The position numbers and the translations under genes are program-made. The notes beneath the pieces were generated by a model that was given only the letters and a program-made list of their open reading frames with translations, did no database searches and had not been told where the DNA came from. Of a DNA stretch of 64,000 nucleotides, positions 11,628 through 62,785 are shown piece after piece. This DNA comes from Topomyia yanbarensis (lineage: Eukaryota; Arthropoda; Insecta; Diptera; Culicidae), in assembly GCF_030247195.1 (NCBI RefSeq), contig NC_080672.1, forward strand, positions 184,326,310-184,390,309, read 5' to 3'. Numbering within the stretch: the stretch's first letter is position 1; every line of letters starts with the position of its first letter.

Positions 11628-12980
11628 ATGGCCGAGGGCGAAGTAACATTGGATGGGAATGATATTCCCATGGATTTACCGGATAAACCCGAAATTACTC
11701 CCTCCCCTGATTCCCCCAGTCCTCCCCGTATTAAAACATACCCAGCCAGTTCAAATGGACCCTGGGTGCTGTATTTCCGGCCCAACACGAAATCGCCCAA
11801 TATTCTAGAAATATCCCGGGAGCTGACTACTAACTACCCATCCGTAGCTCAGATAACACGTGTTCGAGCTAATATGATACGCGTTATAGTAAATGACCTC
11901 GATCAGGCAAACCAGAATGCTCGCAGCGAGCATTTTACGAAGCAATTGAGGGTTTATGTGCCTTGTAGGGCAGTGGAGCTCGATGGGATCGTCGCCGAAC
12001 CGGGTCTGAAGTGCGAAGACCTGTTGAAGTACGGGGTTGGCTGCTTTAAGGACCCTTCACTTCAACAGGTAAAGATTCTGGAATGCAAGCAATTGTATTC
12101 CGCAAAAACTGAAGGTGATAAGACAACTTATTCTCCGTCAGACTCGATTCGGGTGACTTTCTCCGGGTCTGCTCTTCCCAACTATGTCCTCCTGGATCAG
12201 GTTCGCCTGTTTGCACCGCGGGTAATGAACTGCAGCAATTGCAAGCAACTGGGCCACACAGCCACTTATTGTGGCATTAAAAAACGATGTGGCAAATGCG
12301 AGGGAGAGCATGAGGATGACGCTTGTGGTGGAGAAACTGAGAAGTGTATTTACTGCGGGGGCCCTCCGCATGCTCTTAAGTCATGCCCGGCGTACAAGCA
12401 GCGCGGGGATAAAATTAGGCGCTCCCTTAAGGATCGCTCGAGGCACTCTTATGCAGAAATGCTAAAGAATGCTTCGCCATCTGTCCCTTCCGAAAATTCC
12501 TTTGCTCTTTTGGCTGGCGTTGATCAAGAATCTGACGACCCACAAGAGGGAACATCATTGGTTATCCCAGGGGAATCCAGGAAGAGGAGAAATCTAGCCT
12601 CCCCTAAATTGCCTCGTAAGGGTGCCAAGGTGTCGTCCACTCAGAATGTGCCAACTACAATCAATAAATCCAACGGAAGTGATGCACTAAAGCCGAAGCA
12701 ATTTGCTCCAGGACTTGGAAATATTATTTCTAACAAGGAGTATCCACTATTTACAGGGACACCAAAAACCCCAAGTGTTCCCTTTTTTCAAACAGATACT
12801 CAGTCCAGTAGCGGGCTAATGAAATTTTCTGACATAGTGGACTTAATTTTCACAGCTTTCAATGTTACTGATCCTCTTAAAAGCCTTCTGATACGTTTTC
12901 TCCCTATAGTGCAAACAGTTTTGAAGCAGTTGACTACTAAATGGCCCCTCCTTGCAGCGATCGTATCCTTCGATGGCTAA
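11628..12980 (+). CDS. I-clade retrotransposon ORF1 protein (Gag-like, three zinc knuckles), intact
   Basis: A 450-residue open frame from ATG at 11628 with no internal stop. The N-terminal third is acidic and proline-rich. The middle carries the conserved pre-knuckle region (about residues 45-195, starting GPWVLYFRP). Three zinc knuckles follow: CSNCKQLGHTATYC (202-215), CGKCEGEHEDDAC (221-233) and CIYCGGPPHALKSC (240-253). A basic, low-complexity tail follows. In I-type elements ORF1 binds the element RNA and forms cytoplasmic particles. It overlaps ORF2 by 8 nt in ATGGCTAA, so ORF2 is probably translated by termination-reinitiation. It may still be expressed, but its ORF2 partner is dead. 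Confidence 0.85.
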   Translation: MAEGEVTLDGNDIPMDLPDKPEITPSPDSPSPPRIKTYPASSNGPWVLYFRPNTKSPNILEISRELTTNYPSVAQITRVRANMIRVIVNDLDQANQNARSEHFTKQLRVYVPCRAVELDGIVAEPGLKCEDLLKYGVGCFKDPSLQQVKILECKQLYSAKTEGDKTTYSPSDSIRVTFSGSALPNYVLLDQVRLFAPRVMNCSNCKQLGHTATYCGIKKRCGKCEGEHEDDACGGETEKCIYCGGPPHALKSCPAYKQRGDKIRRSLKDRSRHSYAEMLKNASPSVPSENSFALLAGVDQESDDPQEGTSLVIPGESRKRRNLASPKLPRKGAKVSSTQNVPTTINKSNGSDALKPKQFAPGLGNIISNKEYPLFTGTPKTPSVPFFQTDTQSSSGLMKFSDIVDLIFTAFNVTDPLKSLLIRFLPIVQTVLKQLTTKWPLLAAIVSFDG

Positions 12981-15900
12981 GTCATCGAACGAGGTCACCG
13001 ATTCGATCACTGTTCTACAGTGGAACAGCAGAAGTATCCTCCCGAAAATCTATTCCTTTAAATTTTTACTAAATAGTTTAAAATGTGATGCTTTCGCATT
13101 ATGTGAAACTTGGTTAACTTTCGATATAAATCTCAACTTCCACGACTTTAATATAATTCGTCTTGATCGAGAAAACCCCTATGGAGGAGTACTTTTGGGG
13201 ATCAAAAAGTGCTATTCTTTCAACCGAATTAACCTCCCTTCGACACCAGGCATTGAAATTGTCGCTTGTCAAGTTTTAATCAAAGGTAAAGACCTTTGCA
13301 TTGCTTCCATCTACATTCCTCCTAGAGCCTCGGTAGGGCACCGAACGCTTTGTAATATCACGGAATCCTTACCGGCACCGCGGCTAGTTCTGAGAGACTT
13401 TAACTCGCACAGTACGGTATGGGGCTGTCTTCATGATGATAATAGATCAACATTAATTCAAGATCTTTGCGACAATTTCAACATGACCATTTTAAACACG
13501 GGAGAAATGACGCGGATTCCTACACCACCAGCACGCGCAAGCGCGTTGGATTTATCGCTTTGCTCGACTTCGCTACAGTTAGATTGCATGTGGAAGGTGA
13601 ACCCTGATCCCCACGGTAGCGATCATTTGCCTATCGTGATTTCAATTGCTAACGGTTCAAGACCATCGGAAACAATCAATGTCTCGTATGACCTCACACG
13701 GAGCATTGATTGGAAGAGTTACGCGACCGCGATATCCGTCAAAATCGAATCCACTCAAGAACTTCCTCCGGAGGAAGAGTACAGGTTTTTGGCTGGCTTG
13801 ATTCTCGACAGTGCGAATCAAGCTCAGACTAAACCAGTACCCAGCATGAATACTCATGGACGGTCTTCCACCCTGTGGTGGGATAAAGAGTGCTCAGAGC
13901 TGTACGCGGAGAAGTCCACTGCATATAAGGCCTTCCGGGAAGACTGGTTACCCGCTAGCTATCAACAGTACGCGTCGTTAGAAAGGCGAATGAAGAGTCT
14001 AATGAAAACCAAAAAACGCAGTTATTGGCGCCGGTTCGTCGACGGGTTAACGAGAGAAACATCGATGAGCACTCTTTGGGGTACGGCTCGACGTATGCGT
14101 AACCGAAACAGTACCAACGAGAACGTGAAATATTCAAACCGTTGGATAGTCGCTTTCGCCAAGAAGATCTGTCCGGACTCTGTCCCGGTACAGAAAACGT
14201 GCCGCGCCGCGTCTCCTCCCGATACCGCGAACGAAACACCTTTTTCGATGGTGGAGTTCTCACTTGCTCTCTTGTCATGCAACAATAACGCCCCAGGATT
14301 AGACAGAATCAAATTCAACTTGCTGAAGAATCTGCCTGATACTGCAAAAAGGCGCTTGTTGAATTTTTTTAACAAGTTTCTTGAGGGTAACATTGTCCCT
14401 CATGAATGGAGGCAAGTGAAGGTCATCGCCATCCAAAAACCAGGAAAACCAGCCTCCGACCACAACTCGTATCGGTCGATTGCAATGCTGTCATGTATTC
14501 GGAAGTTGTTCGAGAAAATGATCTTGTTTCGCCTCGACAATTGGGTTGAAGCAAATGGCTTACTATCAGATACACAATTTGGCTTCCGCAAAGGCAAAGG
14601 GACGAACGATTGCCTTGCGTTGCTTTCTACAGAAATCCAAACGGCCTATGCTAACAAAGAGCAGATGGCATCAGTCTACTTGGATATTAAGGGGGCTTTT
14701 GACTCAGTTTCTATCAACATTCTGTCAGAGAAGCATGGTCTTTCACCAATTTTAAATAACTTTTTGCTAAACCTGTTGTCTGAAAAGCACATGCACTTTT
14801 CGCATGGCGATTTAACAACATCGCGATTTAGCTACATGGGTCATGTTTACGTCCCCTACTCTACAATTTTTACGTGAATGACATTGACGATTGTCTTGCC
14901 AATTCATGCACGCTAAGGCAACTTGCAGACGACGGGGTGGTCTCTGTTACAGGGCCCAAAGCTGCCGACTTGCAAGGACCATTACAAAATACTTTGGACA
15001 ATTTGTCTGCTTGGGCTCTTCAGCTGGGTATCGAGTTCTCCACGGAGAAAACTGAGTTGGTTGTTTTTTCTAGGAAACGTGAGCCGGCGCAACTCCAGCT
15101 TCTATTAATGGGTGCAACGATCAATCAGGTTTTCACATTTAAATATCTCGGGGTCTGGTTCGACCCTAAAGGTACCTGGGGATGTCACATTAGGTATCTG
15201 AAACAGAAATGCCAACAAAGGATCAATTTTCTCCGGACAATAACTAGAACATGGTGGGGTGCCCACCCAGGGAACCTGATCAGGTTATACCAAACAACGA
15301 TATTGTCCGTGATGGAGTACGAGTGTTTCTGTTTCCGCTCCGCTGCGAACATACACTTCAACAAACTGGAGAGAATCCAGTATCGTTGCTTGCGCATTGC
15401 CTTGGGTTGCATGGACTCGACCCATACGATGAGTCTCGAAGTGCTGGAGGGCGTTCTTTCGCTAAAAATCGATTTTGGGAACTCTCATATCGATTGCTCA
15501 TCCGATGCGACATTCTGAACCCGTTGGTGATTGAAAACTTCGAGAGGCTCGTCGAGCTAAACTCTCAAACCCGATGTATGTCCTTGTACTTCGACTACAT
15601 GGCACAGAGCATTAATCCTTCTTCATATACTTCCAACCGTGTTCGTTTCCTAAATACTTCTGATTCTACTGTATTCTTCGACACATCCATGAAGGAAGAG
15701 ATTCATGGAATCCCGGACCATATACGCCCGCAAGTGATCCCCAATATATTTTATAATAAATTCCGAGAAGTCGACTGTGACAAAATGTTCCACACTGACG
15801 GATCAAATCTCGATGGGTCTACTGGCTTCGGTATCTTCAACAATACTATCACCGCTTCATTCAAGCTCAATGATCCCGCTTCAATTTACGTCGCAGAGTT

Positions 15901-16636
15901 AGCTGCAATTCAGTACACCCTTGGGATCATCGACACTCTGCCCACAGATCACTACTTCATCATTTCGGACAGCCTCAGCTCTATTGAGGCTCTTCGTTCG
16001 ATGAAGCCCAAAAAGCAATTCCCATATTTCCTGGGTAAGATACGGGAGTCCTTGTGTACGTTATCTGAAAAATCTTACCAGATTACCTTTGTTTGGGTCC
16101 CCTCTCATTGCTCTATCCCGGGCAATGAAAAGGCCGACTCATTAGCAAAGGTGGGCGCATTAAATGGTGACATATACGAAAGACCAATTTGCTTCAACGA
16201 ATTTTTTAGTATTTGTCGTCAGAGGACACTCAATAGTTGGCAAACCGCGTGGAGCAATGGTGAACTTGGACGATGGCTACATTCCATTATCCCAAAAGTA
16301 TCAACGAAGCCTTGGTTCAGGGGGATGGATGTGGGTCGGGATTTTATTCGTGTAATGTCCCGACTTATGTCCAACCACTACACCTTAGATGCGCATTTGC
16401 GGCGTATTGGGCTTGCGGAGAGAAGTCTGTGCGCTTGTGATGAGGGCTATCACGACATCGAGCACGTTGTCTGGATATGCGCCGGGTATTTGGACGCCAG
16501 GTCTCAGTTAAAGGATTCCCTTCGGGCCCGAGGTAGACCACCCAATGTCCCAGTCCGAGATATGCTGGCAAATCGTGATTTCCCCTATATGTCCCTTATT
16601 TATACTTTCATAAAAACGATAAATATCCCAATTTAG
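12973..16636 (+). pseudogene. I-clade ORF2: endonuclease, reverse transcriptase, RNase H; two frame breaks
   Basis: The likely start is ATG 12973 (MAKSSNEV), inside the end of ORF1. The endonuclease opens with VLQWNSRS and retains ALCETWL and GSDHLPIVI, but GDFN is RDFN. RT palm motifs include SYRSIAMLSCIRKLFEK, TQFGFRKGKGTND and VYLDIKGAFDS. Near 14840 a short deletion removes the PQG turn and shifts frame; the sequence resumes at 14874 with NDIDD and LADD (14922..14933). A second shift near 15465, in an A run, moves to the frame ending at 16636. RNase H is complete there: TDGS, VAELAAIQ, ISDSLSS and GNEKADSLAK supply the D-E-D-D set. A Cys/His finger follows (CACDEGYHDIEHVVWIC). The missing PQG and the two shifts abolish RT function. 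Confidence 0.85.
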
Positions 16637-18021: not shown

Positions 18022-19916
18022 AGGCGTAGCCGGGGGGGGGGTTTAACCAAATTTAATTGGATTGAAAAAAATAATTGATACTGACGAATTTAATTTAATA
18101 TTCCACAAAATATTTTTGGAGAAATATTCTCTGATGACTACATTGAGAACTGTGTTTAAAGCGTCATGAGAACTTTTGGAAAATTGTGGGAAGGGGATCG
18201 ATCTTGTAACTTATCTCTTAACCAAAATCCCATAGTTGTCAAATTACTTCAATATAAAATATAATAACTGTCTGAATTATTATGAGCTCATTTTTGGAAA
18301 GATGCTTCAAAATATGGATTAGAGACAATTTTTCGAATGGGAATCTAAATTTGAATAGGTTGATTGCATATAAAACATAAGCTTGTTTACCGCAAACTTG
18401 CATACATTTCAACATTTGCTGAAAATGTATTTTTTTAGATTTGTAGAGTTTGGACAACAATTCAATATGGTTAACAACAAGAATAACATTTCAGAAACTA
18501 GTTGAAAGCTGATGTAATTTTGTCTCTAGCGGGTCAGGATCGGTTTTATGAGCATGGGATTTTTGTTGTATCATCAACTATATGAATAGCCTCTTAGCAG
18601 GATGCAATGAATGGCGTACTAAAATTTTGTGTGCTACGTACTAGTACTGCAAGTTGTGAGGTTGACTAATGAAGAAAAGTAAAATTAATGCTCGATAAAT
18701 TTTTAACGGTTACGATCACATTCATTCGAAACTGCCAAATTTCGATGTTAAGTAACATTGAAGAATTTCAAAACGTAAAACTGTTCATCTACTGATAGAA
18801 TAATTTTGACGGTTAATCCTCCTAGAAGTAATTATAGAGAAGAATTACTCTTCAAGCAAATTTGGGTCGAAACTTAATATCTCCAGCAAAGTTTTCGAAA
18901 GTGCTATTTCAAACAACTTTGTCAAAGACATAAATATCCTACATATTCAGAGTATCGAAATATAGTAGTAGAAAACCTTTACACCAAGCTATTCTGAAAT
19001 TACTGTATTTGATAAATCTCTTCTGCGGTAATTAAATAATAAATTCACATTGCGTTCAAGGTGCCTTTGAAGCTTACAAAAAAATAAGGGAACTGGATTT
19101 AAAACAAATAATTCCCAGATATTAAAAGGACTCAAAAACACAAAGAGTGATTCCATTTTCAGGAGCTAGCATCAATTCGGCACTAGCTTAGTCCGCCCAC
19201 CAAGTTAGTGTCGGATTCTGATGAGATAAAGTCGAAACGCAAGTTTCAGTTCCATCGATCCATAATTTAGTTATAGGTTTTGTGTTCTCAACTCGCAATG
19301 ATTGTTTCAAACAATTTTATCCGTAGCGCAGAAAAAAATAGTTTTCACCTAAATTTTTCTTCACTAAGAGGAAATATAGCAGGCCCAGTCCATTTAAATC
19401 ACTATATGTGGAATTCACGTAGCCTTCATATTTTCAACAAAATTGTTTGAAATGACATTATCAAAAACTTTGCTGAAGGCACCATGTCTCTTAATATTTT
19501 TGAAAAATTTATTCACCATAATTACCTCTATGAGAATTAATCACTAAAATTCCTATATCAAAGCAGGCGCTGTTTTATGTTGATAACTTCCCGAAGTTGT
19601 CAAACCTTCAAAGTCAAGGATTATTATATTAGGTGATCTTGAACGTTGAAAATTTTTTAGATCATTTATCCCATTTTAAAAGATCGCAATTTTTGACTTC
19701 ATTGACATATTATACAAGAAAATAATCTATAGAGGTTTGAAAACTGTTCCATGTTGATCCTTCTTGTTTGTAGACTGGAATGACATCTGTTAGACTACTT
19801 ATGTTTTTGAGTTTTCAATAATTTATCAAACTCATATTAAGTTTTAGCATTTTTTCAAAAAAATTGCGATTTTCATCAAAACCCCCTCCAAACCAAATTT
19901 CTGGCTACGCCACTAT
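18022..19916. mobile_element. 1.9-kb non-coding element with GGCGTAGCC terminal inverted repeats
   Basis: The ends AGAGGCGTAGCCGG (18022..18035) and CTGGCTACGCCACT (19903..19916) are imperfect inverted repeats. Removing the block restores a reading frame across the LINE ORF1 remnant, which supports it as one insertion. A G9 run follows the left end and the matching AAACCCCCTCC precedes the right end. No transposase is visible. It contains a diverged hammerhead relic at 19165..19242. The ends of the same type also occur at 51342..51358. Confidence 0.6.
19165..19242 (+). ncRNA. Hammerhead ribozyme relic (retrozyme family), degenerate
   Basis: Plus strand. CTGATGA (19218..19224) is followed by GATAAAGTC as stem II and GAAA, then CGCAAG. 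The stem I strands AATTCGGCACTAG (19174..) and TTAGTGTCGGATT are complementary over 13 positions counting G-U pairs. The stem III 5' strand is decayed (AGCATC where TTGCGTC is expected), so cleavage is doubtful. Downstream at 19357 lies a diverged copy of the same hairpin module found in the 33653 array. Confidence 0.65.
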
Positions 19917-26864: not shown

Positions 26865-27713
<849 letters not shown>

Positions 27714-29422
27714 CTGATCTGTCAATTCCAGTTCCGGTCTATAGGGATAATGAGTATAGAACATATCATTTTTCATCATCTTTTTGCGCATTCGATAAGG
27801 TCCTTCTGTTGTGTCAAGCATCCATTTTGTAAAATTGTGAGACTTTTCTGGGCCCCACAATCCACGTTCTCTGAAAAGTTCTGCTTCAGATTGCAACCAT
27901 TCCTGATACACGTATCGCTGGGTATGTTGGATTGTCCGTACGTATTGCGAACTTCTCAAGTTCCAAAACTCATTTACTAGGTATAGATTAAGCAGGTTTA
28001 ATTGGTAAATTGTTTCCATATCTGGTTCTAGTTTTTCTTTTGTCTGATCATCTCTTTTTACCTTAGTTCGGCTGGCTAGTCTCGTGAGATTACCTGTTAC
28101 TTTCTGGATTTTTGATTGTATGTTGTTATGCAAATCCCAAGGTACACGACATTGAGCTTTTTTTTCGCCATCCACATAACTCAACCAAAGTTTCATAGCA
28201 GAATCTAAAATTTGTTCTCTCGTAACAGTCGTGTCCGGTGCTTTTGCATTATTTAACGGTGTAGTTAAAGAAATTTTAAAAATTTCTTCTATTGCAGGTT
28301 TTTTGCAGACATATATTTCTTCCCAAACACGAGATGCCGCATTGGATATTAAATTAATTCCTTGATGGCGAGAAAGAGAATCGTCGTCACATATGGTACT
28401 ATAATCATTATTTGAACTAACATGCCATTTTGTTGTGCGATTGCTGTGCTCCGATTCTTTTATATCAAGCTCAATTTTTTCATTTGCAATCAATTGCATC
28501 AAACAATACGTTAGACATCCAATAAATTCAAGCTCGTGGTTGCCAGCACCAAAAATTATTAATCTATTAGTGGTCAACTTATGCAGAGTTTCCATGACCA
28601 TCATTTGATCTGATACGGTTGCTGTTGGGCGTGAAAGAAGATATAAAATGCAACGGTTCAAAGAATGATACAGTTGATCCAAAGAAAGAGCAGTTGAACG
28701 GCGTTTCGCCTGAGTGATCAACTTTATTATGAATTCGAAAATCTCATGTGGATCTTTGCTTATAAGTCCTTGCCACAATTTATCGACAATTCTAGCGGAT
28801 AGATAGAATACGTTTGGCGCGATGTTTTGTACGTGGCTTTGCAGTAGTGGCACAATCGGTAGGGCAGCTTGCTCTCCAACCAATATGTCAGCAGCCAGTA
28901 AATGGTCCATTAGAGTAGTTATAACTTCCGTCAGAAATGTACACTTAGCCACATGCGAGTCATCTGGTTGCCCATCCAAAATGTAGTCGATTATTGGAGG
29001 ACTTTTACCGCTGCATGCCAAACTAAATGAATCAACAGCAACTACGCGCAAAAAATCTATGATGAATTTTCGTACAGGATGGTTTGTTAGCCCTCGTTTA
29101 TCTTGTACAGCAATACGCTTCACTACGTTTTGTTGCGATTGTAATTCTTCGGAGGTTGAGGATACACTGCTTGCATCAGAATCAGTCGAAGTAATTTGGT
29201 AAGGAAATATTATTGCAATTAGCGAGTTTATAACTTCAGCTGACATTATGACAGACATAAAGTCTGGTAAATTATGATACAACGAAAATAGAACTTGAAT
29301 GAGCGTAATTGGATGGTTGTGCAGCCATTCAGCGTTATTTGTCGTGTGTACAATTTTGCGAACAAGACTTAGTAGAACACATACAGCTTCTGGACATATG
29401 CACATCTTCGGTAGAACAGAAC
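27714..29422 (-). CDS. bchs: Internal exon of blue cheese / WDFY3 (Alfy) BEACH-domain protein gene
   Basis: Minus-strand exon of 1709 nt with no internal stop, about 569 residues. The acceptor is TATTTTCAG before 29422 and the donor is CAG/GTATGT after 27714, where the frame ends on a codon boundary (phase 0). An ATG at 29444 lies in the intron and is not a start. Conserved blocks recognised as WDFY3/Blue cheese, upstream of its PH-BEACH-WD40 part, include FGAGNHELEFIGCLTYCL, VYQEWLQSEAEL, GLWGPEKSHNFTKWMLD and TEGPYRMRKKMMKNDMFY. The protein is a very large scaffold for selective autophagy of aggregates and, in flies, for neuronal survival. Its composition is unlike the flanking transposons. 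No neighbouring exon was found, so the flanking introns must be long. The identification is by motif memory and a protein search would settle it. Confidence 0.85.
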
Positions 29423-29577
29423 CTGAAAATAGATATAGAGGCATATTAGAATCTAAAATTGTTCACAAAAAATCAGAAAATCTATAATTACGGAATTCGA
29501 ACACTGAGCAAAAAACTATTATAAGCAAGAATAAGTGTGAAGGCATGAGTAGTACGCGGTCTAGAGCAATAATTAAT
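29423..29577 (-). other. Host-gene intron immediately upstream of the exon
   Basis: Pyrimidine-rich on the minus strand next to the acceptor (CTATATCTATTTTCAG), with a second possible acceptor TTTTAG near 29455. No other feature. Confidence 0.6.
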
Positions 29578-31640: not shown

Positions 31641-31732
31641 TAAGTTGACTGCCACATTTTGAAAGCCAAGATCTCTTCGGAACAGCATTTATTAAAACAT
31701 TATTAATCGCAAAATTAGTTAGTTATAAAGTT

Positions 31733-31830
31733 TGTGTGTCGATTTTGTCTCATCAGAATCCGACACTAATTTAATGTCAGGACTAGCAGAAAAAGCAGTG
31801 TCAGACTCTGATGAGAAGTCGAAACGCAAA
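31733..31830. ncRNA. Two opposed hammerhead-ribozyme relics (retrozyme family)
   Basis: The plus strand has CTGATGA at 31808..31814, then GAAGTC (stem II shortened), GAAA and CGCAA. The minus strand has CTGATGA at 31756..31750, then GACAAAATC and GACA (GAAA mutated). The two cores face each other, so the 98-bp block is itself an imperfect palindrome. The perfect ancestral-looking stem I strand AATCCGACACTAA is present at 31757..31769. Both copies look inactive. A hairpin around CTTTTCTCC/GGAGAAAAG and the line CATAGACC downstream (31855..31930) match the 33653 unit's hairpin module. Confidence 0.6.
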
Positions 31831-31930
31831 TTCCATAACTAGTGTTGTAATATATTTCTTTTCTCCTTAGTGGAGAAAAGAAGTGTTTTCCAAAATTTTT
31901 CTCCACCAAGAAAAAATACAGCATAGACCA

Positions 31931-33638: not shown

Positions 33639-33652
33639 TACAAAATTTCGTA
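33639..33652. repeat. Target-site duplication of the hammerhead array, left copy (14 bp)
   Basis: TACAAAATTTCGTA, repeated exactly at 34928..34941. It brackets the whole tandem array, so the array entered as one unit. Confidence 0.85.
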
Positions 33653-33661
33653 CTATGCTAT

Positions 33662-33715
33662 ATTTCACCCTAAGGAGGAAAATTTGGTAAAACCAAAATT
33701 TTTCACTAGGGTGAA
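33662..33715 (-). ncRNA. Conserved hairpin module of the hammerhead unit
   Basis: TTTCACCCTA...GAAAATTTGGT pairs with ACCAAAATTT...TAGGGTGAAA around a 3-nt loop, about 24 bp with one internal loop. It recurs in each 343-bp unit (about 34005, 34348 and 34691). Diverged versions lie downstream of the hammerhead relics at 19165 and 31733. It would make the RNA rod-like. Confidence 0.6.
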
Positions 33716-33775
33716 AATTTGTTGGTAAAAACCAGTCTTTGTACAGGAGGGCACAAATCCTTATTTCATACTATG

Positions 33776-33850
33776 TTGCGTTTCGGCTTCGCCTCATCAG
33801 AAACCGACACTAACACATTGTCGGAATAGATTAGCGCCGGCTTGACGCAA
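33776..33850 (-). ncRNA. Hammerhead ribozyme, unit 1 (complete)
   Basis: On the minus strand, 5' to 3': stem III strand UUGCG, UC with predicted cleavage between 33844 and 33843 (GUC triplet), stem I strand AAGCCGGCGCUAA, a 17-nt loop, stem I strand UUAGUGUCGGUUU (13 pairs counting G-U), CUGAUGA (33800..33794), stem II GGC-GAA-GCC (33793..33785), GAAA (33784..33781) and stem III strand CGCAA (33780..33776). All conserved core positions are present. Only stem III is open-ended (type III topology). Confidence 0.85.
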
Positions 33851-34118
33851 ATCCCTTAAAACTAAAACACACTATGTGTTTCAATCAAACGACTGATCAA
33901 ACGTGATGTCCCGTTCGAGCAGAAGTTCTGTTTATGCCGATGAGACACAAGTGAAGCCGAAACTTGTCTTGGCTTAGCAGGCCTATGCGAAAGCACTATG
34001 CTATATTTCACCCTAAGGAGGAAAATTTGGTAAAACCAAAATTTCTCACTAGGGTGAAAATTTGTTGGTAAAAACCAGTCTTTGTACAGGAGGGCACAAA
34101 TCCTTATTTCATACTGTG

Positions 34119-34193
34119 TTGCGTTTCGGCTTCGCCTCATCAGAAACCGACACTAACACATTGTCGGAATAGATTAGCGCCGGCTTGACGCAA
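34119..34193 (-). ncRNA. Hammerhead ribozyme, unit 2 (complete)
   Basis: Identical in core, stems and loop to unit 1, exactly 343 bp away. Predicted cleavage is between 34187 and 34186. Confidence 0.85.
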
Positions 34194-34461
34194 ATCCCTT
34201 AAAACTAAAACACACTATGTGTTTCAATCAAACGACTGATCAAACGTGATGTCCCGTTCGAGCAGAAGTTCTGTTTATGCCGATGAGACACAAGTGAAGC
34301 CGAAACTTGTCTTGGCTTAGCAGGCCTATGCGAAAGCACTATGCTATATTTCACCCTAAGGAGGAAAATTTGGTAAAACCAAAATTTCTCACTAGGGTGA
34401 AAATTTGTTGGTAAAAACCAGTCTTTGTACAGGAGGGCACAAATCCTTATTTCATACTATG

Positions 34462-34536
34462 TTGCGTTTCGGCTTCGCCTCATCAGAAACCGACACTAAC
34501 ACATTGTCGGAATAGATTAGCGCCGGCTTGACGCAA
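34462..34536 (-). ncRNA. Hammerhead ribozyme, unit 3 (complete)
   Basis: Same 75-nt structure as units 1 and 2. Predicted cleavage is between 34530 and 34529. Confidence 0.85.
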
Positions 34537-34804
34537 ATCCTTTAAAACTAAAACACACTATGTGTTTCAATCAAACGACTGATCGAACGTGATGTCCCGT
34601 TCGAGCAGAAGTTCTGTTTATGCCGATGAGACACAAGTGAAGCCGAAACTTGTCTTGGCTTAGCAGGCCTATGCGAAAGCACTATGCTATATTTCACCCT
34701 AAGGAGGAAAATTTGGTAAAACCAAAATTTCTCACTAGGGTGAAAATTTGTTGGTAAAAACCAGTCTTTGTACAGGAGGGCACAAATCCTTATTTCATAT
34801 TATG

Positions 34805-34852
34805 TTGCGTTTCGGCTTCGCCTCATCAGAAACCGACACTAACACATTGTCG
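34805..34852 (-). ncRNA. Hammerhead ribozyme, unit 4, 5' half missing
   Basis: Retains CGCAA, GAAA, stem II, CUGAUGA and the 3' strand of stem I on the minus strand. The 5' strand of stem III, the cleavage site and the 5' strand of stem I are replaced by the junction with the inverted copy, so this copy cannot cleave as drawn. Confidence 0.75.
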
Positions 34853-34922
34853 TCAAGCCGGCGCTAATCTATTCCGACAATGTGTTAGTGTCGGTTTCTG
34901 ATGAGGCGAAGCCGAAACGCAA
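34852..34922 (+). ncRNA. Inverted hammerhead copy at the array end
   Basis: Plus strand. GTC at 34852..34854 is followed by the stem I strand AAGCCGGCGCTAA, loop, TTAGTGTCGGTTT, CTGATGA (34898..34904), stem II GGCGAAGCC (34905..34913), GAAA and CGCAA. The 5' strand of stem III is mostly absent (TTGTC in place of TTGC). The segment begins within 3 nt of the predicted cleavage site. With unit 4 it forms a perfect palindrome with arms of about 50 bp and a 22-nt loop (34801..34925). Confidence 0.75.
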
Positions 34923-34927
34923 CATAG

Positions 34928-34941
34928 TACAAAATTTCGTA
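34928..34941. repeat. Target-site duplication of the hammerhead array, right copy
   Basis: Exact second copy of TACAAAATTTCGTA. Confidence 0.85.
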
Positions 34942-36130: not shown

Positions 36131-36189
36131 AAAATGAAGGCTTCGATCGTCTCTAACGAAGGCTTCAACACCCCTATTGACCATTGGAG

Positions 36190-36256
36190 TTAAACCGGCG
36201 CTAGCTTAGTCCTGTCAGTAGGTTAGTGTCGGATTCTGATGAGACGAAGTCAAAAA
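36190..36256 (+). ncRNA. Hammerhead ribozyme relic (retrozyme family), inactive
   Basis: Plus strand. Stem I strands AACCGGCGCTAG and TTAGTGTCGGATT, CTGATGA (36235..36241) and a perfect stem II GACGAAGTC remain. GAAA is replaced by an A run, so the core G12 is lost and stem III is absent. Confidence 0.6.
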
Positions 36257-51084: not shown

Positions 51085-51335
51085 AGAGCAAGGATGTGAA
51101 GTAAACAGATCGGAAAACTAGAAGTGGCAGGGTCGGTTGTCACGGTAAAGATAGACCTGTCTGCCTATACCAGGACACATGCTAGTGCACTCGGGTGGTT
51201 CGTAGTTATGCTGCCTAAGCTCGACCCTCATTAGCAGAAGACACAAATTAAGCCCGTACGATATTAAGCCTTTCTAATCACCCTGCCACTTCTAGTTTTC
51301 CGATCTGTTTACTTCACATCCTTGCTTTTCATCAA
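51085..51335. mobile_element. Small inverted-repeat element (about 45-bp arms)
   Basis: AGCAAGGATGTGAAGTAAAC and the following bases to 51135 are the reverse complement of 51283..51332, ending CATCCTTGCT. The spacer of about 150 bp is GC-richer. The left flank CCATAGTACTCAAGTGAG is shared with the 575-bp satellite unit. Confidence 0.65.
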
Positions 51336-51955
51336 ATTTCCACCAAATCGAATTTCTGGCCACGCCACTGACTCCAAGTAAGTAGAAACAAAATCGTTCA
51401 ACCTCGTCCACAAGGAAAATTCTTCGAATACTGCCTATCAATTATAATACATTGAAGACCCGTTTTGATCAGGCCCCGATTTAGTCTGCCCCCATTTTAT
51501 CAACCTCATGTTTGATGAGCTTTAGCAGACCAACAAGGCTGAACGCCATTGACAGTATGAACTTTAAATTGATTCAAAAAAACTTTTTTCGATTTTCGGG
51601 CTTAGGCTTATATTAAGCCTTTCTAATCACCCTGCCACTTCTAGTTTTCCGATCTGTTTACTTCACATCCTTGCTTTTCATCAAATTTCCACCAAATCGA
51701 ATTTCTGGCCACGCCACTGACTCCAAGTAAGTAGAAACAAAATCGTTCAACCTCGTCCACAAGGAAAATTCTTCGAATACTGCCTATCAATTATAATACA
51801 TTGAAGACCCGTTTTGATCAGGCCCCGATTTAGTCTGCCCCCATTTTATCAACCTCATGTTTGATGAGCTTTAGCAGACCAACAAGGCTGAACGCCATTG
51901 ACAGTATTAACTTTAAATTGATTCAAAAAAACTTTTTTCGATTTTCGGGCTTAGC
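51262..51955. repeat. 349-bp tandem duplication
   Basis: TATTAAGCCTTTCTAATCAC begins at 51262 and again at 51611, and the sequence then repeats to GATTTTCGGGCTTAG. The copies differ at only one or two bases seen by eye (for example AGTATGAAC versus AGTATTAAC). The duplication includes the right arm of the inverted-repeat element and a CTGGCCACGCCACT terminus. Confidence 0.85.
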
Positions 51956-54661: not shown

Positions 54662-54710
54662 GTGGTCAACGCGTTGTAGTAGAGTTCCTGCGATGTTATA
54701 GTTGAAGGTA

Positions 54711-55590
54711 ACCAGATACGCAGATGATCTGAAAATTTATCGCATCATAACAACTCTGGTAGATTGTTGTGCACTTCAGATGGACATAGATAGGATCATG
54801 AGTTGGTGTGATAGAAACGGAATGACTATAAACATTCAGAAATGCAACATAATCACATTCACACGAATACTCTCGCCAATTACGTTTGAGTATGCAGTGA
54901 GCGCTGCCCCAGTAAAACGAGTTTCATCAATCAAGGACCTTGGTGTTATACTTGACCGTAAGCTACGTTTCATCGAACACTTCAATGCAGTTACTGCTAA
55001 AGCCTTTGCAGTACTAGGACTCATCAAACGAAACACCCAAGATTTCAACGACGTCTACTGCCTGAAGGCACTGTACATCAGTCTGGTACGCAGCATTCTA
55101 GAGTATGGAGTTATCGTTTGGGCCCCGTATCACACCGTACACATTAATCGCATAGAACGGGTGCAAAAGAGCTTCGTCCGGTATGCCCTTCGACGGCTTC
55201 CCTGGCGAAATCGATTTGAACTACTACCGTATGAGCATCGTTGTGCTCTTATCAACCTGCCTACGCTACGAAACAGGAGAGTTTTTCTGCAGCGACTTTC
55301 TGTGTTCGATCTTCTCGCTGACAACATTGACTGCCCTCTGCTTCTCGCTAAGCTGGACTTCAACGTTCCTGGTAGGTCTCTGCGGAGAATGGACTTCTTT
55401 CGGCGCTCTACTCATCGCACGCAGTACGGCCAGAATAACCCGGTAGATGTTTGCTGTCAGCTCTTCAATAGCGTTTTTTATCATTTCGACTTTAACTTAA
55501 GTAGAGAAATGTTCAAAGTGAAAATAGGTTTAAGTTAGTAGAGTATTTCAGTCTGTACGAAAATTTATTAATTCGAAGACAATATATTAA
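54711..55590 (+). pseudogene. Antisense CR1-like fragment nested in copy B, tandem copy 1
   Basis: A plus-strand frame of about 275 codons runs from YADDLKIYR to the natural C-terminus (TAG near 55536), with DLGVILDRKLRF, EYGVIVWAPY and RIERVQKSFVRYALRRLPW. It starts exactly at the YADD motif, so it is a severely 5'-truncated LINE. It interrupts the minus-strand RT between the lines ISYYRTRN and VTFNYN. No target duplication is evident. Its frame is open throughout, so it is younger than the copy it landed in. Confidence 0.8.
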
Positions 55591-55599
55591 TTCATAATT

Positions 55600-55941
55600 C
55601 ATATTTCTCGTTCGATAATAGCTGATGACAAAACATTTTGCAATGCTAAGGACCATCATGTTTCTTACACACCAGCTGTCAATAAGATGCTGTAGCTCAC
55701 GGCAATCGGTTTCATTCCGTATAACAAGAAAAAAATTCAAAAAACAGCTTTCCTCCACGGCTTAGAACGAAAACCGCATCGTTCACGAACAGTGAAAAAA
55801 GTAGTGGACCTAGCGTACTACCTTGAGGAACTCCGGAAGTGTTGAAAAAGGATTCTGAAACAATATCGCCAATTTGAACAACGATTTCACGGTGCACAAG
55901 GTAGGATCGAAGCCAATGGCATAATCTAGTAGAACACCCTA
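55600..55941 (-). pseudogene. CR1-like RT palm fragment, tandem copy 1
   Basis: Minus-strand frames 55897..55712 and 55758..55600 hold TSGVPQGSTLGPLLFSLFVN and CRELQHLIDSWCVRN. Between them the YADD active site is absent, replaced by a T-rich stretch read as FFEFF. Cut at 55941 by the duplication junction. Confidence 0.75.
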
Positions 55942-56321
55942 GATTGTCTTGCAGTCTTCGACAAACTTGTTCGGTATATCTTCAAAAGCTTAACTCCTTC
56001 CTAGGTGCGTGTTCGAAAGTTTACAGCGACCTCTAGGGGTGATAATGTGAACTGTGAGTGTTTCCCCATACATTTTGGCCAAAATCCCATACAAACTTTA
56101 AGCTCGTTGCGGGAGGAATTAGGGTTAACCGATTTCGCTCAAATTTGGACAGTGTCATTTTTTCATGATTTGGAACGACGCTAGGGGGTGTAGATTAGTA
56201 ATTTCAAAAATGGTCATTTTATTGTCACCCTACTGTATTTGTATTTGTATTTGTATAAAAAAAAGTCCAACTGACAATTTGTCTTAATGAACTATACTAA
56301 ACTAAGGTAAACTAAACATAA

Positions 56322-56931
56322 TTAAAATAGTGACAATACACGACGACGAAACTGCGAAGAGTTCATGACGAAGTCAAAAATTTCAGCAAACTCGTTGAAG
56401 CGACGACTCATTGCCAAAATTGGACTATTGGCAGCATAGTTAGTGCTGCGCATTTCAGAATGCAGCAGGGCTCGAGGGCGAAGAGAACGGGTAGGCGCGT
56501 AGAGGTTGATTTGCGCTAGTAGCTCCGGATCATCATATTCAGCCAGCAGATCTTTGACACGAAGGTAGCTTGCGTGCATGTCTCCGGCGTGTTAAAGTAT
56601 TAAGTCCAAAAAGACGACAACGGTCCTCGTATGGTGGCAGGTTTAATGGATCGTTCCACGGCAATTCACGTAACGCATATCGTATGAATTTACGCTGGAC
56701 TGCTTCGATCCTAAGGCTCCACGTAACTTGATACGGGCACCAAACGACGTTTGCAAATTCCAACTGCGGGCGCACCAATGAGCAATAAAGAACCTTGAAG
56801 CATAGAGGATCCCGAAATTCGTTGGATATTTTGAAAATAAATCCCAGCAAACGATTGGCTCTGTCGCTGGTCGCTGAGACGTGATGAGTATACGTTAGCT
56901 TATCATCAAGAATGACTCCTAGATCCTTCAC
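56322..56931 (-). pseudogene. CR1-like RT C-terminus, tandem copy 2
   Basis: Same as the copy at 54052..54661, 2270 bp away, with the same frameshift. One silent difference is visible (AGCATAGTT for AGCGTAGTT). Confidence 0.8.
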
Positions 56932-56980
56932 GTGGTCAACGCGTTGTAGTAGAGTTCCTGCGATGTTATAGTTGAAGGTA

Positions 56981-57860
56981 ACCAGATACGCAGATGATCT
57001 GAAAATTTATCGCAACATAACAACTCTGGTAGATTGTTGTGCACTTCAGATGGACATAGATAGGATCATGAGTTGGTGTGATAGAAACGGAATGACTATA
57101 AACATTCAGAAATGCAACATAATCACATTCACACGAATACTCTCGCCAATTACGTTTGAGTATGCAGTGAGCGCTGCCCCAGTAAAACGAGTTTCATCAA
57201 TCAAGGACCTTGGTGTTATACTTGACCGTAAGCTACGTTTCATCGAACACTTCAATGCAGTTACTGCTAAAGCCTTTGCAGTACTAGGACTCATCAAACG
57301 AAACACCCAAGATTTCAACGACGTCTACTGCCTGAAGGCACTGTACATCAGTCTGGTACGCAGCATTCTAGAGTATGGAGTTATCGTTTGGGCCCCGTAT
57401 CACACCGTACACATTAATCGCATAGAACGGGTGCAAAAGAGCTTCGTCCGGTATGCCCTTCGACGGCTTCCCTGGCGAAATCGATTTGAACTACTACCGT
57501 ATGAGCATCGTTGTGCTCTTATCAACCTGCCTACGCTACGAAACAGGAGAGTTTTTCTGCAGCGACTTTCTGTGTTCGATCTTCTCGCTGACAACATTGA
57601 CTGCCCTCTGCTTCTCGCTAAGCTGGACTTCAACGTTCCTGGTAGGTCTCTGCGGAGAATGGACTTCTTTCGGCGCTCTACTCATCGCACGCAGTACGGC
57701 CAGAATAACCCGGTAGATGTTTGCTGTCAGCTCCTCAATAGCGTTTCTTATCATTTCGACTTTAACTTAAGTAGAGAAATGTTCAAAGTGAAAATAGGTT
57801 TAAGTTAGTAGAGTATTTCAGTCTGTACGAAAATTTATTAATTCGAAGACAATATATTAA
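56981..57860 (+). pseudogene. Antisense CR1-like fragment, tandem copy 2
   Basis: Same as 54711..55590. The open frame is retained with a few substitutions (I to N after IYR; F to L and F to S near CCQLLNSVSYH). Confidence 0.8.
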
Positions 57861-57869
57861 TTCATAATT

Positions 57870-58211
57870 CATATTTCTCGTTCGATAATAGCTGATGACA
57901 AAACATTTTGCAATGCTAAGAACCATCATGTTTCTTACACACCAGCTGTCAATAAGATGCTGTAGCTCACGGCAATCGGTTTCATTCCGTATAACAAGAA
58001 AAAAATTCAAAAAACAGCTTTCCTCCACGGCTTAGAACGAAAACCGCATCGTTCACGAACAGTGAAAAAAGTAGTGGACCTAGCGTACTACCTTGAGGAA
58101 CTCCGGAAGTGTTGAAAAAGGATTCTGAAACAATATCGCCAATTTGAACAACGATTTCACGGTGCACAAGGTAGGATCGAAGCCAATGGCATAATCTAGT
58201 AGAACACCCTA
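57870..58211 (-). pseudogene. CR1-like RT palm fragment, tandem copy 2
   Basis: Same as 55600..55941, including the lost YADD. Confidence 0.75.
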
Positions 58212-58591
58212 GATTGTCTTGCAGTCTTCGACAAACTTGTTCGGTATATCTTCAAAAGCTTAACTCCTTCCTAGGTGCGAGTTCGAAAGTTTACAGCGAC
58301 CTCTAGGGGTGATAATGTGAACTGTGAGTGTTTCCCCATACATTTTGGCCAAAATCCCATACAAACTTTAAGCTCGTTGCGGGAGGAATTAGGGTTAACC
58401 GATTTCGCTCAAATTTGGACAGTGTCATTTTTTCATGATTTGGAACGACGCTAGGGGGTGTAGATTAGTAATTTCAAAAATGGTCATTTTATTGTCACCC
58501 TACTGTATTTGTATTTGTATTTGTATAAAAAAAAGTCCAACTGACAATTTGTCTTAATGAACTATACTAAACTAAGGTAAACTAAACATAA

Positions 58592-59201
58592 TTAAAATAG
58601 TGACAATACACGACGACGAAACTGCGAAGAGTTCATGACGAAGTCAAAAATTTCAGCAAACTCGTTGAAGCGACGACTCATTGCCAAAATTGGACTATTG
58701 ACAGCGTAGTTAGTGCTGCGCATTTCAGAATGCAGCAGGGCTCGAGGGCGAAGAGAACGGGTAGGCGCGTAAAGGTTGATTTGCGCTAGTAGCTCCGGAT
58801 CATCATATTCAGCCAGCAGATCTTTGACACGAAGGTAGCTTGCGTGCATGTCTCCGGCGTGTTAAAGTATTAAGTCCAAAAAGACGACAACGGTCCTCGT
58901 ATGGTGGCAGGTTTAATGGATCGTTCCACGGCAATTCACGTAACGCATATCGTATGAATTTACGCTGGACTGCTTCGATCCTAAGGCTCCACGTAACTTG
59001 ATACGGGCACCAAACGACGTTTGCAAATTCCAACTGCGGGCGCACCAATGAGCAATAAAGAACCTTGAAGCATAGAGGATCCCGAAATTCGTTGGATATT
59101 TTGAAAATAAATCCCAGCAAACGATTGGCTCTGTCGCTGGTCGCTGAGACGTGATGAGTATACGTTAGCTTGTCATCAAGAATGACTCCTAGATCCTTCA
59201 C
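58592..59201 (-). pseudogene. CR1-like RT C-terminus, tandem copy 3
   Basis: Same as 54052..54661 with one A-to-V substitution (STNYAVNSP). Confidence 0.8.
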
Positions 59202-59250
59202 GTGGTCAACGCGTTGTAGTAGAGTTCCTGCGATGTTATAGTTGAAGGTA

Positions 59251-60130
59251 ACCAGATACGCAGATGATCTGAAAATTTATCGCATCATAACAACTCTGGT
59301 AGATTGTTGTGCACTTCAGATGGACATAGATAGGATCATGAGTTGGTGTGATAGAAACGGAATGACTATAAACATTCAGAAATGCAACATAATCACATTC
59401 ACACGAATACTCTCGCCAATTACGTTTGAGTATGCAGTGAGCGCTGCCCCAGTAAAACGAGTTTCATCAATCAAGGACCTTGGTGTTATACTTGACCGTA
59501 AGCTACGTTTCATCGAACACTTCAATGCAGTTACTGCAAAAGCTTTGCAGTACTAGGACTCATCAAACGAAACACCCAAGATTTCAACGACGTCTACTGC
59601 CTGAAGGCACTGTACATCAGTCTGGTACGCAGCATTCTAGAGTATGGAGTTATCGTTTGGGCCCCGTATCACACCGTACACATTAATCGCATAGAACGGG
59701 TGCAAAAGAGCTTCGTCCGGTATGCCCTTCGACGGCTTCCCTGGCGAAATCGATTTGAACTACTACCGTATGAGCATCGTTGTGCTCTTATCAACCTGCC
59801 TACGCTACGAAACAGGAGAGTTTTTCTGCAGCGACTTTCTGTGTTCGATCTTCTCGCTGACAATATTGACTGCCCTCTGCTTCTCGCTAAGCTGGACTTC
59901 AACGTTCCTGGTAGGTCTCTGCGGAGAATGGACTTCTTTCGGCGCTCTACTCATCGCACGCAGTACGGCCAGAATAACTTGGTAGATGTTTGCTGTCAGC
60001 TCTTCAATAGCGTTTTTTATCATTTCGACTTTAACTTAAGTAGAGAAATGTTCAAAGTGAAAATAGGTTTAAGTTAGTAGAGTATTTCAGTCTGTACGAA
60101 AATTTATCAATTCGAAGACAATATATTAAT
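59251..60130 (+). pseudogene. Antisense CR1-like fragment, tandem copy 3, frameshifted
   Basis: Same as 54711..55590, but a base lost near 59540 (GCAAAAGCTTTGCAG for GCTAAAGCCTTTGCAG) breaks the frame. The rest continues from 59700 to the C-terminus at 60077. The lesion is private to this copy and so arose after the triplication. Confidence 0.8.
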
Positions 60131-60139
60131 TCATAATTC

Positions 60140-62785
60140 ATATTTCTCGTTCGATAATAGCTGATGACAAAACATTTTGCAATGCTAAGGACCATCATGT
60201 TTCTTACACACCAGCTGTCAATAAGATGCTGTAGCTCACGGCAATCGGTTTCATTCCGTATAACAAGAAAAAAAATTCAAAAAACAGCTTTCCTCCACGG
60301 CTTAGAACGAAAACCGCATCGTTCACGAACAGTGAAAAAAGTAGTGGACCTAGCGTACTACCTTGAGGAACTCCGGAAGTGTTGAAAAAGGATTCTGAAA
60401 CAATATCGCCAATTTGAACAACGATTTCACGGTGCACAAGGTAGGATCGAAGCCAATGGCATAATCTAGTAGAACACCCTAGCTTATCGAGCTTTGTTAT
60501 CAGTATCTCATGATTAACTCTATCAAAAGCTGCCTTTAGATCAGTGTAAATAGTATCCACCTGCAATTTCTTAGACATTTGTTCCGTGCAAAATGACAGA
60601 CGAGATTCGTCTCGACTGAACGTCCTGGGAAAAATCCGTGCTGAGATGTACTAATGTAGTGTCGACAAGCAGAAAATAACGCCTCGTTGATAATTGATTC
60701 AAACACTTTAGATTCGACTCCTAGCGAAGTGATTCCGCGATAGTTCGCTGTGTTGCGTTTGTCACCTTTCTTGAATACTGGGAACATAACTGAGCATTTC
60801 CAATCCTCAGGAAACGTTTGCTGCTGAAGCGATAGGTTAAAAATATATGCAAGTGGTGTTACAAGTAAGTCCGAACATTTTTTCAATACAGTTGAAGGTA
60901 TAGCACTGAGGCCGGGTGCATAAGATGACTTGGTTTTCCGAATTGCAGATATAACCATTTGTTCAGAGACAGTAAACACATCCAAATCAACAGCACAAGC
61001 AGGAACGTTGCGAGAGGCATTTTCGAGTTCGTTTGCGGTTGGCGAGTCAATTGAAAAAACAATTGAGAAGAATCTGGCAAACAGCGTACATTTCGCCACA
61101 GTTGTCGTAGCTTCTTCGCCGTCGTAAAGCATCCTTGATGGAAGTCCAGTTTCTTTTCGCTTCGTGTTGACAAATGACCAAAAGCCTTTCGGGTTTCGGC
61201 GTAGATTATTCTGGATGCGGTTTACATAGCGTTTGTACAGAAGCTTGTTGTAACAACGATACTCATTACTGGCTAAAGTGAACATGCGCTTAGAAAGAGG
61301 ACACCGTCGATTTGTGTACGCACGTAGGGTTTTTGCTCGAGTACGTTTTAGCTTTCGAAGAGTGCTGTTTGACCAGGGCGGCTTGCTAGGAGGCTGACAT
61401 TTAGGCACTGAGGTCTCAACCCAGTTCAGTAGTAGTCGCTTGTAGATGGCAACTGCAGCATTAACACTCACTTGGGCATGCAGTACACTCCAATCAATTT
61501 GCGACAGAGAACTGCGCAGCTTTACAAAATCAGTTTTGCGAAAGTTGAGACGGTCGACAGAAAGAGTTTCTACATACTGAACTGATCGAATAGTGCCAAT
61601 TGAAATTTAAAGCGCGGGATGAAAGTTGTCAAGTGGAACAATCACGCTGGATGCTTCATTGACGGAACATACAGGTAAAATAGTTTCACTAACAAAGACG
61701 AGATCCAGAAAGCGTGACTGGTGGTTAGGAATCATGCTTACTTGACTTAGCCCGTTGAAAGCAAATCCGTCCAGTAGCAAACGACTGGCGATGTTGGTTG
61801 TCGAAGCAATCGGGTCTGGGTAAGCGTATCCGTGTCGTGACGGCACCCATATGAGCCCTGGCTGATTGAAATCACCAAGGACAATCATCACGCCATCCGC
61901 GCCAGCTTGCGAAGAAGCGTTATTCACAGCATCCATGTGAAGTTGCATGATATTGCAGTCGAGTCGCTTTTCAGGAGGAATATAGACAGCACCAATATAA
62001 AAGTTCCTCGATGGAGTTGTAATTCTAACCCAAACAGCCTCAACACTGGTTAAACTACCTACATCAATCTCACATGAGGCAAATGCGGTGGAAACAGCAA
62101 ACAAAACTCCTCCTCCACGTCCACGAATACTGTTGCCACTATTTCGGTCTGCACGGTATACGGTGTAAGTCAAAAAGCTGCACTGATGTTATACGCGCAT
62201 CGAGCCATGTTACGGTGAAGACGCAAACATCGTAGTCACCGTCCACAGCAGCTAAATACACGTCATCAATTTTCGTATTAAGCCCTCTCGCGTTCTGATA
62301 GTAAATCCGCAAACCATCAGTGTCATGTGAGAGGTGTCGTGCTGCATTCCAAGTTTCAGGAATACGGGCTCGATGTTACTATCACCGCAAATAGTGCGGG
62401 GAGAGCATGATGTACTGTTGTCAGGAAGGGGAACAAGCTGCGATACGGAGGGAATGACTGCGTCATAACTGTTGTGTCCAGCGGCTGACTGCAATGGGAG
62501 GCATACTTGAAGGTGCGCAGTATCACGTGTAGCTTCGGAAGGACATATATTATTCAAATGTTTACCTGAGCGGACAGATGCGATGCGATCGAAATTATCA
62601 TTTTGACATTGAAGGTTCGCTGGAGCGGTAGAGTCGATTGAGTTGTGTTCATCAGCAGACTGTAAGTGAAATTTACATTGAGGATGTGCAGCATCTTGAA
62701 GTGCTTCGGAAGGACATATACCCTTCTTGGCTTTACCTGACACAGAAGATGTTGCCGATATGTCAGGTAGTCCGATGTCGCTCAC
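60140..62785 (-). pseudogene. CR1-like ORF2: linker, endonuclease and reverse transcriptase, broken (copy B)
   Basis: The linker starts MSDIGLPDISATSSVSGKA (62785). The endonuclease begins near 62320 with RIYYQNARGLNTKIDD, shifts frame near 62180 and retains GGGVLFAVSTAF, AVYIPPEK, VLGDFNQPGL and LDLVFVSE; the last motif SDHxP is LDNFHP. The RT begins near 61560: RNPKGFWSFVNTKR, SYAPGLSAIPSTVLKK and NYRGITSLG (frame 61471..60536), a shift, then YTDLKAAFDRVNHE and GVPQGSTLGPLLFSLF (60578..60204). The YADD site is lost. The C-terminal part is separated by the antisense insertion. Confidence 0.85.

Follow-up and report, generated by a model that had tools for sequence, protein, structure and literature searches.

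A candidate type III hammerhead retrozyme with two-armed insertions in the mosquito Topomyia yanbarensis

The closest described relatives of the element reported here are the animal non-LTR retrozymes, which carry one hammerhead ribozyme per monomer in tandem units of ~170-400 nt, as does the present element (Cervera and de la Pena, 2020, PMC7229834). The route by which their circles return to an animal genome is left open in the sections of the literature drawn on here (PMC7229834, PMC7761336), and the word 'inverted' is absent, by word match, from the main text of PMC7229834. A review gives a hint of insect elements carrying type III hammerheads, and dipteran type III examples in the housefly, a fruit fly and the soldier fly are given as 'in preparation' in the relevant passages of de la Pena (2021, PMC7936874). 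Hammerheads in interspersed repeats are also described for another mosquito, Aedes aegypti, resembling in this respect the present element, and an Aedes RNA assayed in that work was inactive (Perreault, 2011, PMC3088659). Penelope-like elements (PLEs) encode a protein that, when purified, cleaves and extends both target strands, with internal starts at two sites (PMC11167929). Among the titles listed in searches of the open-licence PMC literature, none names a mosquito retrozyme or two-armed retrozyme insertions.

Topomyia yanbarensis is a mosquito of the tribe Sabethini, and the window examined here is a 64-kb stretch of its genome (Table 1). An initial annotation had marked 33653-34927 as a tandem array of three full, nearly identical 343-bp units and one partial unit. 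This array was confirmed by TRF (period 343 bp, 3.5 copies, 99% matches, 33652-34852), and the three full units differ from one another at 2-3 positions. The marked span turned out to be exactly bounded by a perfect 14-bp target-site duplication and is therefore read as a single insertion, comprising 3.5 units in one direction and a 75-bp inverted arm; its last part (34853-34927) is thus inverted and not a unit of the same direction. The inverted copy is an exact match of 79 nt with its RNA sense on the plus strand (34851-34929), and the two arms overlap by 2 nt at their joint. The unit has a GC content of 42%. It was further said to have no ORF, which holds for long ORFs; the longest stop-to-stop frame in a unit dimer is 96 codons, and 343 is no multiple of 3. 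No ORF with reverse transcriptase (RT) and GIY-YIG domains, the criterion for a PLE, is present in the unit.

Table 1. Positions of the insertion, its ribozymes and its diverged relatives in the window
Feature	Position	Strand	Remarks
Left target-site duplication, TACAAAATTTCGTA	33639-33652		Exact 14-bp identity with 34928-34941
Long arm, three and a half 343-bp units	33653-34852	RNA sense -	Outer end at site A, RNA ...GAAAUAUAGCAUAG|
Type III hammerhead, unit 1	33776-33850	-	Predicted cleavage 33844/33843
Antisense near-copy of ribozyme core within unit	33937-33963	+	Predicted to pair with and hide the core; 1/1000 shuffles reach its score
Type III hammerhead, unit 2	34119-34193	-	Predicted cleavage 34187/34186
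Type III hammerhead, unit 3	34462-34536	-	Predicted cleavage 34530/34529
Partial fourth unit	34681-34852	-	Ribozyme core present, cleavage triplet missing
Ribozyme core of short arm	34848-34922	+	GUC at 34852-34854; helix III weakened; found at the loose setting only
Short inverted arm	34853-34927	RNA sense +	Outer end at site B, RNA ...CGCAACAUAG|
Right target-site duplication, TACAAAATTTCGTA	34928-34941		Exact 14-bp identity with the left copy
Diverged relative, ~64% identical	19136-19381	+	Includes the ribozyme region as well as the same 3' end region
Diverged relative with inverted 5' arm	~31732-31926	+	3' end ...AGCATAG; A1 model E 4.2e-5 (minus), 0.11 (plus)
Diverged relative	36183-36256	+	Ribozyme region only

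The ribozyme was sought with a strict descriptor (CUGANGA, GAAA, NUH, helix III of at least 5 bp, helix I of at least 5 bp and helix II of at least 3 bp), for which a loose setting lowered helix III to at least 3 bp. Exactly three strict sites were found in the window, namely the three full units on the minus strand, with H17 at 33844, 34187 and 34530, and none of 200 dinucleotide shuffles of the window contained any such site. The claim that every unit holds all invariant hammerhead positions is accordingly correct for the full units and fails for the partial fourth, which lacks the GUC and the 5' strand of helix III (minus strand) because its sequence breaks off within helix I. On the minus strand, the parts are helix III (TTGCGT/ACGCAA, 6 bp), the GUC triplet, CUGAUGA, helix II (GGC-GAA-GCC, 3 bp with a GAA loop), GAAA and a continuous helix I of 14 bp that includes four G.U pairs. 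Helix III is open and helices I and II are closed, so the hammerhead is of type III. No loop-loop contact could be named in the ribozyme of the 343-bp unit, which is unusual in this respect as in its continuous helix I and short helix II.

Folding of the RNA depends on how much of the unit is considered. The 75-nt stretch alone samples the ribozyme fold, with pair probabilities of 0.28-0.66 for helix III and ~0.73 for helix II; its nearest-neighbour optimum is -25.8 kcal/mol, against -23.3 kcal/mol for the ribozyme fold drawn without the apical stem, and 6 of 200 shuffles fold equally well. With 120-343 nt of context, helices II and III are hidden in the predicted fold, partly by the antisense near-copy of the core. 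The 343-nt RNA is strongly structured (z -6.17; 0/100 shuffles as low). A scan with Rfam covariance models had been set beforehand as the first of the checks capable of refuting the retrozyme candidate, and at Rfam's own gathering cut-off its outcome formally speaks against the candidate: nowhere in the window was a hammerhead reported. At E <= 10, Hammerhead_3 gave a 39-nt match at five cores with 18.7 bits (cut-off 48.5) and E 0.79, scores that we read as reflecting a helix I longer than the model expects. Matches to microRNA precursors at 34790-34935 were stronger than those to hammerheads at this threshold, all of them below their cut-offs, and were attributed to the inverted repeat. A Pol III promoter was likewise considered and rejected, as neither a tRNA-model match (16.6 bits, E 3.5) nor loose box-B-like matches were significant. 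Exact-pattern scans of viral contigs and genome contigs returned no matches.

Comparison of relatives was based on alignment A1, whose 6 rows represent just three independent lineages (the array, c19k and c36k). Standard pairs fill 93.2% of its pair cells, against 31.5-42.6% when the partners are slid, and helix III, which is mismatched in c19k, c36k and the short arm, reaches only 77.8%. Changes on both sides were found in three pairs, among them a compensatory replacement of G-C by A-U in helix II between subfamilies. Shuffles equalled the observed count of three in 61/500 cases, the covariation score in 45/500 and the percentage paired in 9/500, and the covariation in A1 is weak support for the ribozyme fold. 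A covariance model built from A1 recovered sequences outside its training, with E-values of 2.8e-20 and 2.1e-16 at locus L054 and of 1.9e-14 and 1.3e-11 at L057, and of 4.2e-5 at 31722-31797 of the window; helix III is partly mismatched in these matches. Rfam reported no hammerhead in 19050-19450, around the first diverged relative. An older family related to 31735-31928 has at least 954 first-look candidates in the genome, some of which have inverted neighbours (best 40 scored).

Other repeats and genes were observed around the insertion. A homologue of WDFY3/Alfy is encoded on the minus strand at 27669-29444, ~4 kb from the retrozyme, and its WDFY3-like exon is 45% identical to an Anopheles fragment. 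A LINE akin to the mosquito X-element/I-11, with RNase H and with ORFs that overlap in different frames, occupies 11628-16636. Among the named relatives of a LINE ORF from the window, a protein search listed Topomyia yanbarensis (79%, query coverage 39%) and Aedes albopictus (78%, coverage 28%). The region 54702-60167 looks like a tandem LINE-like array, with near-identical ORFs for RT fragments at 54702 and 56972 and a motif that recurs at 55622, 57892 and 60161 (~2,270 bp spacing). Two tandem copies of 349 bp at 51261-51954 are 99% alike, AT dinucleotides are repeated 183 times at 26867-27232, and tRNA matches above the Rfam cut-off lie at 198-270 and 1036-1101.

The unit was then searched for in the whole genome (1.168 Gb in 1044 contigs; C1, C2 and C3 of 218, 470 and 429 Mb), where it has at least 188 matches and at least 217 first-look candidates, of which the best 40 were scored. 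From the matches listed, 40 places were grouped by hand. Four duplicates (L014 and L047 of L015; L044 and L045 of L042), recognised by common flanks or by identical unusual ends and joint, were removed, leaving 36 independent insertions. Thirty of the 36 are two-armed and head-to-head, with arms that run outward from the centre and RNA 3' ends at the flanks. The outer ends concentrate at two places of the unit ~115 nt apart, site A (q1-6) and site B (q105-128). Both ends lie at A or B in 27 of the 36 insertions, and all 27 have one of each (15 A/B, 12 B/A), A/A and B/B being absent. All 27 also have a target-site duplication, of 11 bp (n=14), 12 bp (n=7), 13 bp (n=4), 14 bp (n=1) or 8 bp (n=1), whereas left and right flanks taken from different insertions matched over 7 bp at most in 300 draws. 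The duplications are 75% A+T, with a spurious 8-bp match at L031 counted among them.

The remaining nine insertions are one-armed (L010, L021, L025, L027, L031, L037) or two-armed with one end elsewhere (L011, L015, L033). Arm lengths and joints differ from insertion to insertion. At least three units are present in 15 of 60 arms and at least five in 4 (L009 with ~7, L011 with ~6, L013 and L018 with ~5). Among the 30 joints, 17 overlap by 1-5 nt, 3 abut and 10 contain 1-11 extra nt, these figures being without a chance control. The ribozyme is intact by the strict descriptor in 95 of the 99 full units of the 36 insertions. The proposal of a candidate mosquito retrozyme is upheld as such by this dispersal, by the duplications at resolved copies, by the lack of a long ORF and by the intact ribozymes. 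In a separate observation, the same foreign sequence is fused to 1.2 units at both L010 and L021, which end at site A and differ in their left flanks, a pattern suggestive of two insertions of a read-through transcript that stopped at A; a chimeric mobile unit is possible.

Judged from these genomic copies, the locus is probably a single insertion formed by two-ended target-primed reverse transcription of a 343-nt circle, and the inserted retroelement, non-coding and non-autonomous, would work in the manner of an animal retrozyme. A genomic copy would first be transcribed, and the type III hammerheads, which the intact ribozymes suggest to be functional, would cleave the transcript into monomers of 343 nt that bear 5'-OH and cyclic-phosphate ends. 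These monomers would be closed into circles by a host tRNA-type ligase, as for published retrozymes. The AT-rich target would be cut on both strands, with the stagger of mostly 11-13 nt that is seen in the duplications, presumably by a Penelope-type reverse transcriptase/endonuclease. Each target 3' end would then prime reverse transcription, at A on one side and at B on the other, the positions being those of the observed ends, and the cDNA would round the putative circle the variable number of times recorded in the unit counts. Finally, the two concatemeric cDNAs would meet and be joined, often over the 1-5 common bases seen at the joints, to give a head-to-head double array.

The nature of the template was approached through the haplotypes of the 99 full units, 14 of the 36 insertions having full units in both arms. 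Units differ on average at 1.33 positions within an insertion, at 1.40 across its arms and at 2.40 between insertions, and none of 10,000 label permutations was as low as either the within-insertion or the across-arm mean. In L026, three non-consensus variants are present in 5/5 full units of both arms, and single variants likewise run through both arms of L028 (5/5) and L030 (3/3). L036 (4/4) and L042 (two variants, 3/3) are also uniform, their full units being confined to one arm, and some uniform variants are not private and occur in other insertions too. One sequence usually fed each insertion. There are mixed insertions, namely L009 (two variants in 2/6 units), L029 (whose arms differ) and L043, and two or more RNAs, or a linear multimer, therefore served as template in some insertions. 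The inner arm ends are spread over the unit, with 4 of 60 within ~6 nt of the cleavage site where ~2.4 would be expected from a uniform distribution. As they are not concentrated there, no clear run-off at a cut 5' end is apparent, and the template was closed or uncut.

An uncut template is the basis of the alternative that survives best, which keeps the two-ended priming and replaces the circle by a linear multimeric transcript of a genomic array, making the ribozyme dispensable for transposition. In the Anolis PLE, ribozyme mutants leave insertion in vitro unchanged and uncut RNA is the main substrate (PMC11167929). The cleavage site is no barrier to the arms, shared haplotypes would also follow from a homogeneous parent array, and the mixed insertions fit a linear multimer. 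Long parent transcripts would however be needed for the 15 arms of three or more units and the 4 of five or more, and the alternative is also opposed by the non-consensus variants carried by every full unit, whichever the arm, of L026, L028 and L030 and by the preservation of the ribozyme in nearly all units, although a uniform linear multimer would be compatible with each of these observations. A linear template is regarded as unlikely, and a circle is preferred over a uniform linear multimer as the probable template.

A candidate for the enzyme was sought among the PLEs of the same genome. GIY-YIG sequences were found in at least five places (best 150 of 439 candidates scored), and at L053 (478-1872) a single frame of 465 aa combines RVT_1 with GIY-YIG, the hallmark of a PLE. 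For the PLE 3' region, the best 40 of 1069 first-look candidates were scored, and a set of 30 loci, with a further two, was studied. Of the 30, 29 have 3' ends at q110-115 or at q145-156, two sites some 35-50 nt apart, the exception being L069, which continues into a further PLE copy. The second site matches the known PLE 'tail', and L092 has one end at q165. Head-to-head copies in which both ends lie at such sites number five when only independent ones are counted (L075, L080, L087, L092 and L093), and each has one end of either kind, L088-L090 being the same place as L087 or a copy of it and not counted separately. Their duplications measure 13 bp at L075, 12 bp at L080 and L087 and 11 bp at L093, and none was found at L092. 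Five further loci with inverted arms have one end elsewhere (L057, L068, L074, L076, L084).

Upstream of its ends, a hammerhead-like motif of minimal type I, its loop III palindromic (AUACCGGUAU), was recognised by eye in the PLE. The cut predicted for this motif precedes the first start site by 78 nt; site B of the retrozyme lies ~74-78 nt after its own predicted cut, a single comparison in which the agreement may be due to chance. No similarity is apparent between the retrozyme and the studied PLE in the sequence around their start sites. The 343-bp unit has no match inside the PLE itself within the PLE stretches compared; its matches in L054 and L057 are neighbouring retrozyme relatives, and a 35-bp match in L056 lies upstream of the PLE. 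Another palindromic repeat, with a hammerhead-like core (CTGACGAGGAGAATCCGAAAC), was observed directly at a PLE 3' end in L057 (4223-4382).

A LINE enzyme, from a non-LTR retrotransposon such as a relative of I or the X-element, would be a different source of the inserting activity, the inverted arms then being products of LINE-style twin priming. Twin priming by LINEs yields 5' inversions, LINE-type ORFs are present in the window, and the duplication lengths are compatible with LINEs too. Against this, the second start site B is fixed in all 27 insertions, and the same pattern of two sites, one per arm, recurs in the five head-to-head PLE copies. Furthermore, extension of both strands in vitro is known for the PLE protein, whereas R2 and L1 extend the bottom strand only (PMC11167929), and a LINE enzyme is considered improbable. 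A Penelope-type enzyme remains the preferred reading, and we lean slightly towards a broader form of it, in which Penelope-type insertion would be obligately two-ended. An enzyme dimer would prime one target strand at each of two fixed RNA sites, so that a circle would yield a palindromic array and a PLE RNA would yield 'tail' and 'tail-less' ends; the mosquito element would then be the first animal type III retrozyme with a readable route. If this broader form is true, a single cause underlies both the tail that PLEs may or may not carry and the tandem arrangement of animal retrozymes.

Ordinary satellite DNA with a fossil hammerhead sequence would account for the tandem repeats, and the monomers of some satellite-repeat hammerheads cleave poorly, as stated in passages of PMC7229834. 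For the array, this explanation is highly improbable given the dispersal of 27 of 36 copies, each with its own duplication and two defined ends, and the compensatory G-C to A-U change in helix II. A foldback-type DNA transposon with long inverted ends built of tandem subrepeats is scarcely credible, for although foldback elements resemble head-to-head arrays with duplications, identical inverted ends are their criterion and the ends here differ in 27 of 27 insertions (A against B, separated by ~115 nt of unit sequence), neither arm lengths nor joints are constant from one insertion to the next, and duplication length ranges over 8-14 bp.

The present survey covers one genome and the best-scored 40 copies of each family (retrozyme and PLE). 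Within it, the start sites, the one-per-end rule, the duplications, the joints and the haplotypes make a defined RNA and a kind of enzyme testable. If two-ended insertion is true, most insertions would be large inverted repeats from the outset, and their read-through transcription would give double-stranded RNA on which small-RNA defence is likely to act. What is new is the type of ribozyme and the readable two-armed insertion, and the novelty suggested by the genomic copies is chiefly mechanistic, namely two fixed start sites, one per target end.

In comparison with known systems, the element shares with animal non-LTR retrozymes, as far as these are characterised in the relevant sections of PMC7229834, a GC content below 50% (here 42%), duplications of more than 4 bp (here 8-14) and the presence of PLEs in the same genome, and it differs from them in having a type III in place of a type I hammerhead. 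Plant LTR retrozymes (Cervera, 2016, PMC4918200) carry a type III hammerhead, as here, and have a circular RNA intermediate, which is here only proposed; their LTRs, 4-bp duplications, ~700-bp span and GC content above 55%, as given in PMC7229834, have no counterpart in this element. The extended type III hammerheads of Diptera and of HDV-like agents have a long helix I, as does the present one (excerpts of de la Pena, 2021, PMC7936874). According to the same excerpts, helix I of the HDV-like ones is interrupted by an internal loop, where it is continuous here, and their 6-bp helix II has a YGGC loop that pairs with GCCR in helix I, in contrast to 3 bp and GAA here; the dipteran ones are presented as motifs, whereas here a mobile element is mapped.

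The Aedes hammerheads have, as described in PMC3088659, a loop III able to pair fully in a dimer, from which the 343-bp unit differs; they are closer to the PLE motif of the Topomyia genome, with its palindromic loop, than to the unit. PLEs resemble the retrozyme in their AT-rich target, their tandem copies and a hammerhead upstream of the start sites (PMC11167929), but differ from the non-coding retrozyme in coding for RT and GIY-YIG and in having minimal hammerheads of type I. Two internal start sites and extension of both target strands are PLE-like features of the retrozyme, read from genomic copies and not from a reaction; in the PLE reaction in vitro, the two strands showed no difference in start site (PMC11167929), whereas the retrozyme copies have one site per end. 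The retrozyme class is already known, and the mosquito element would be its type III counterpart.
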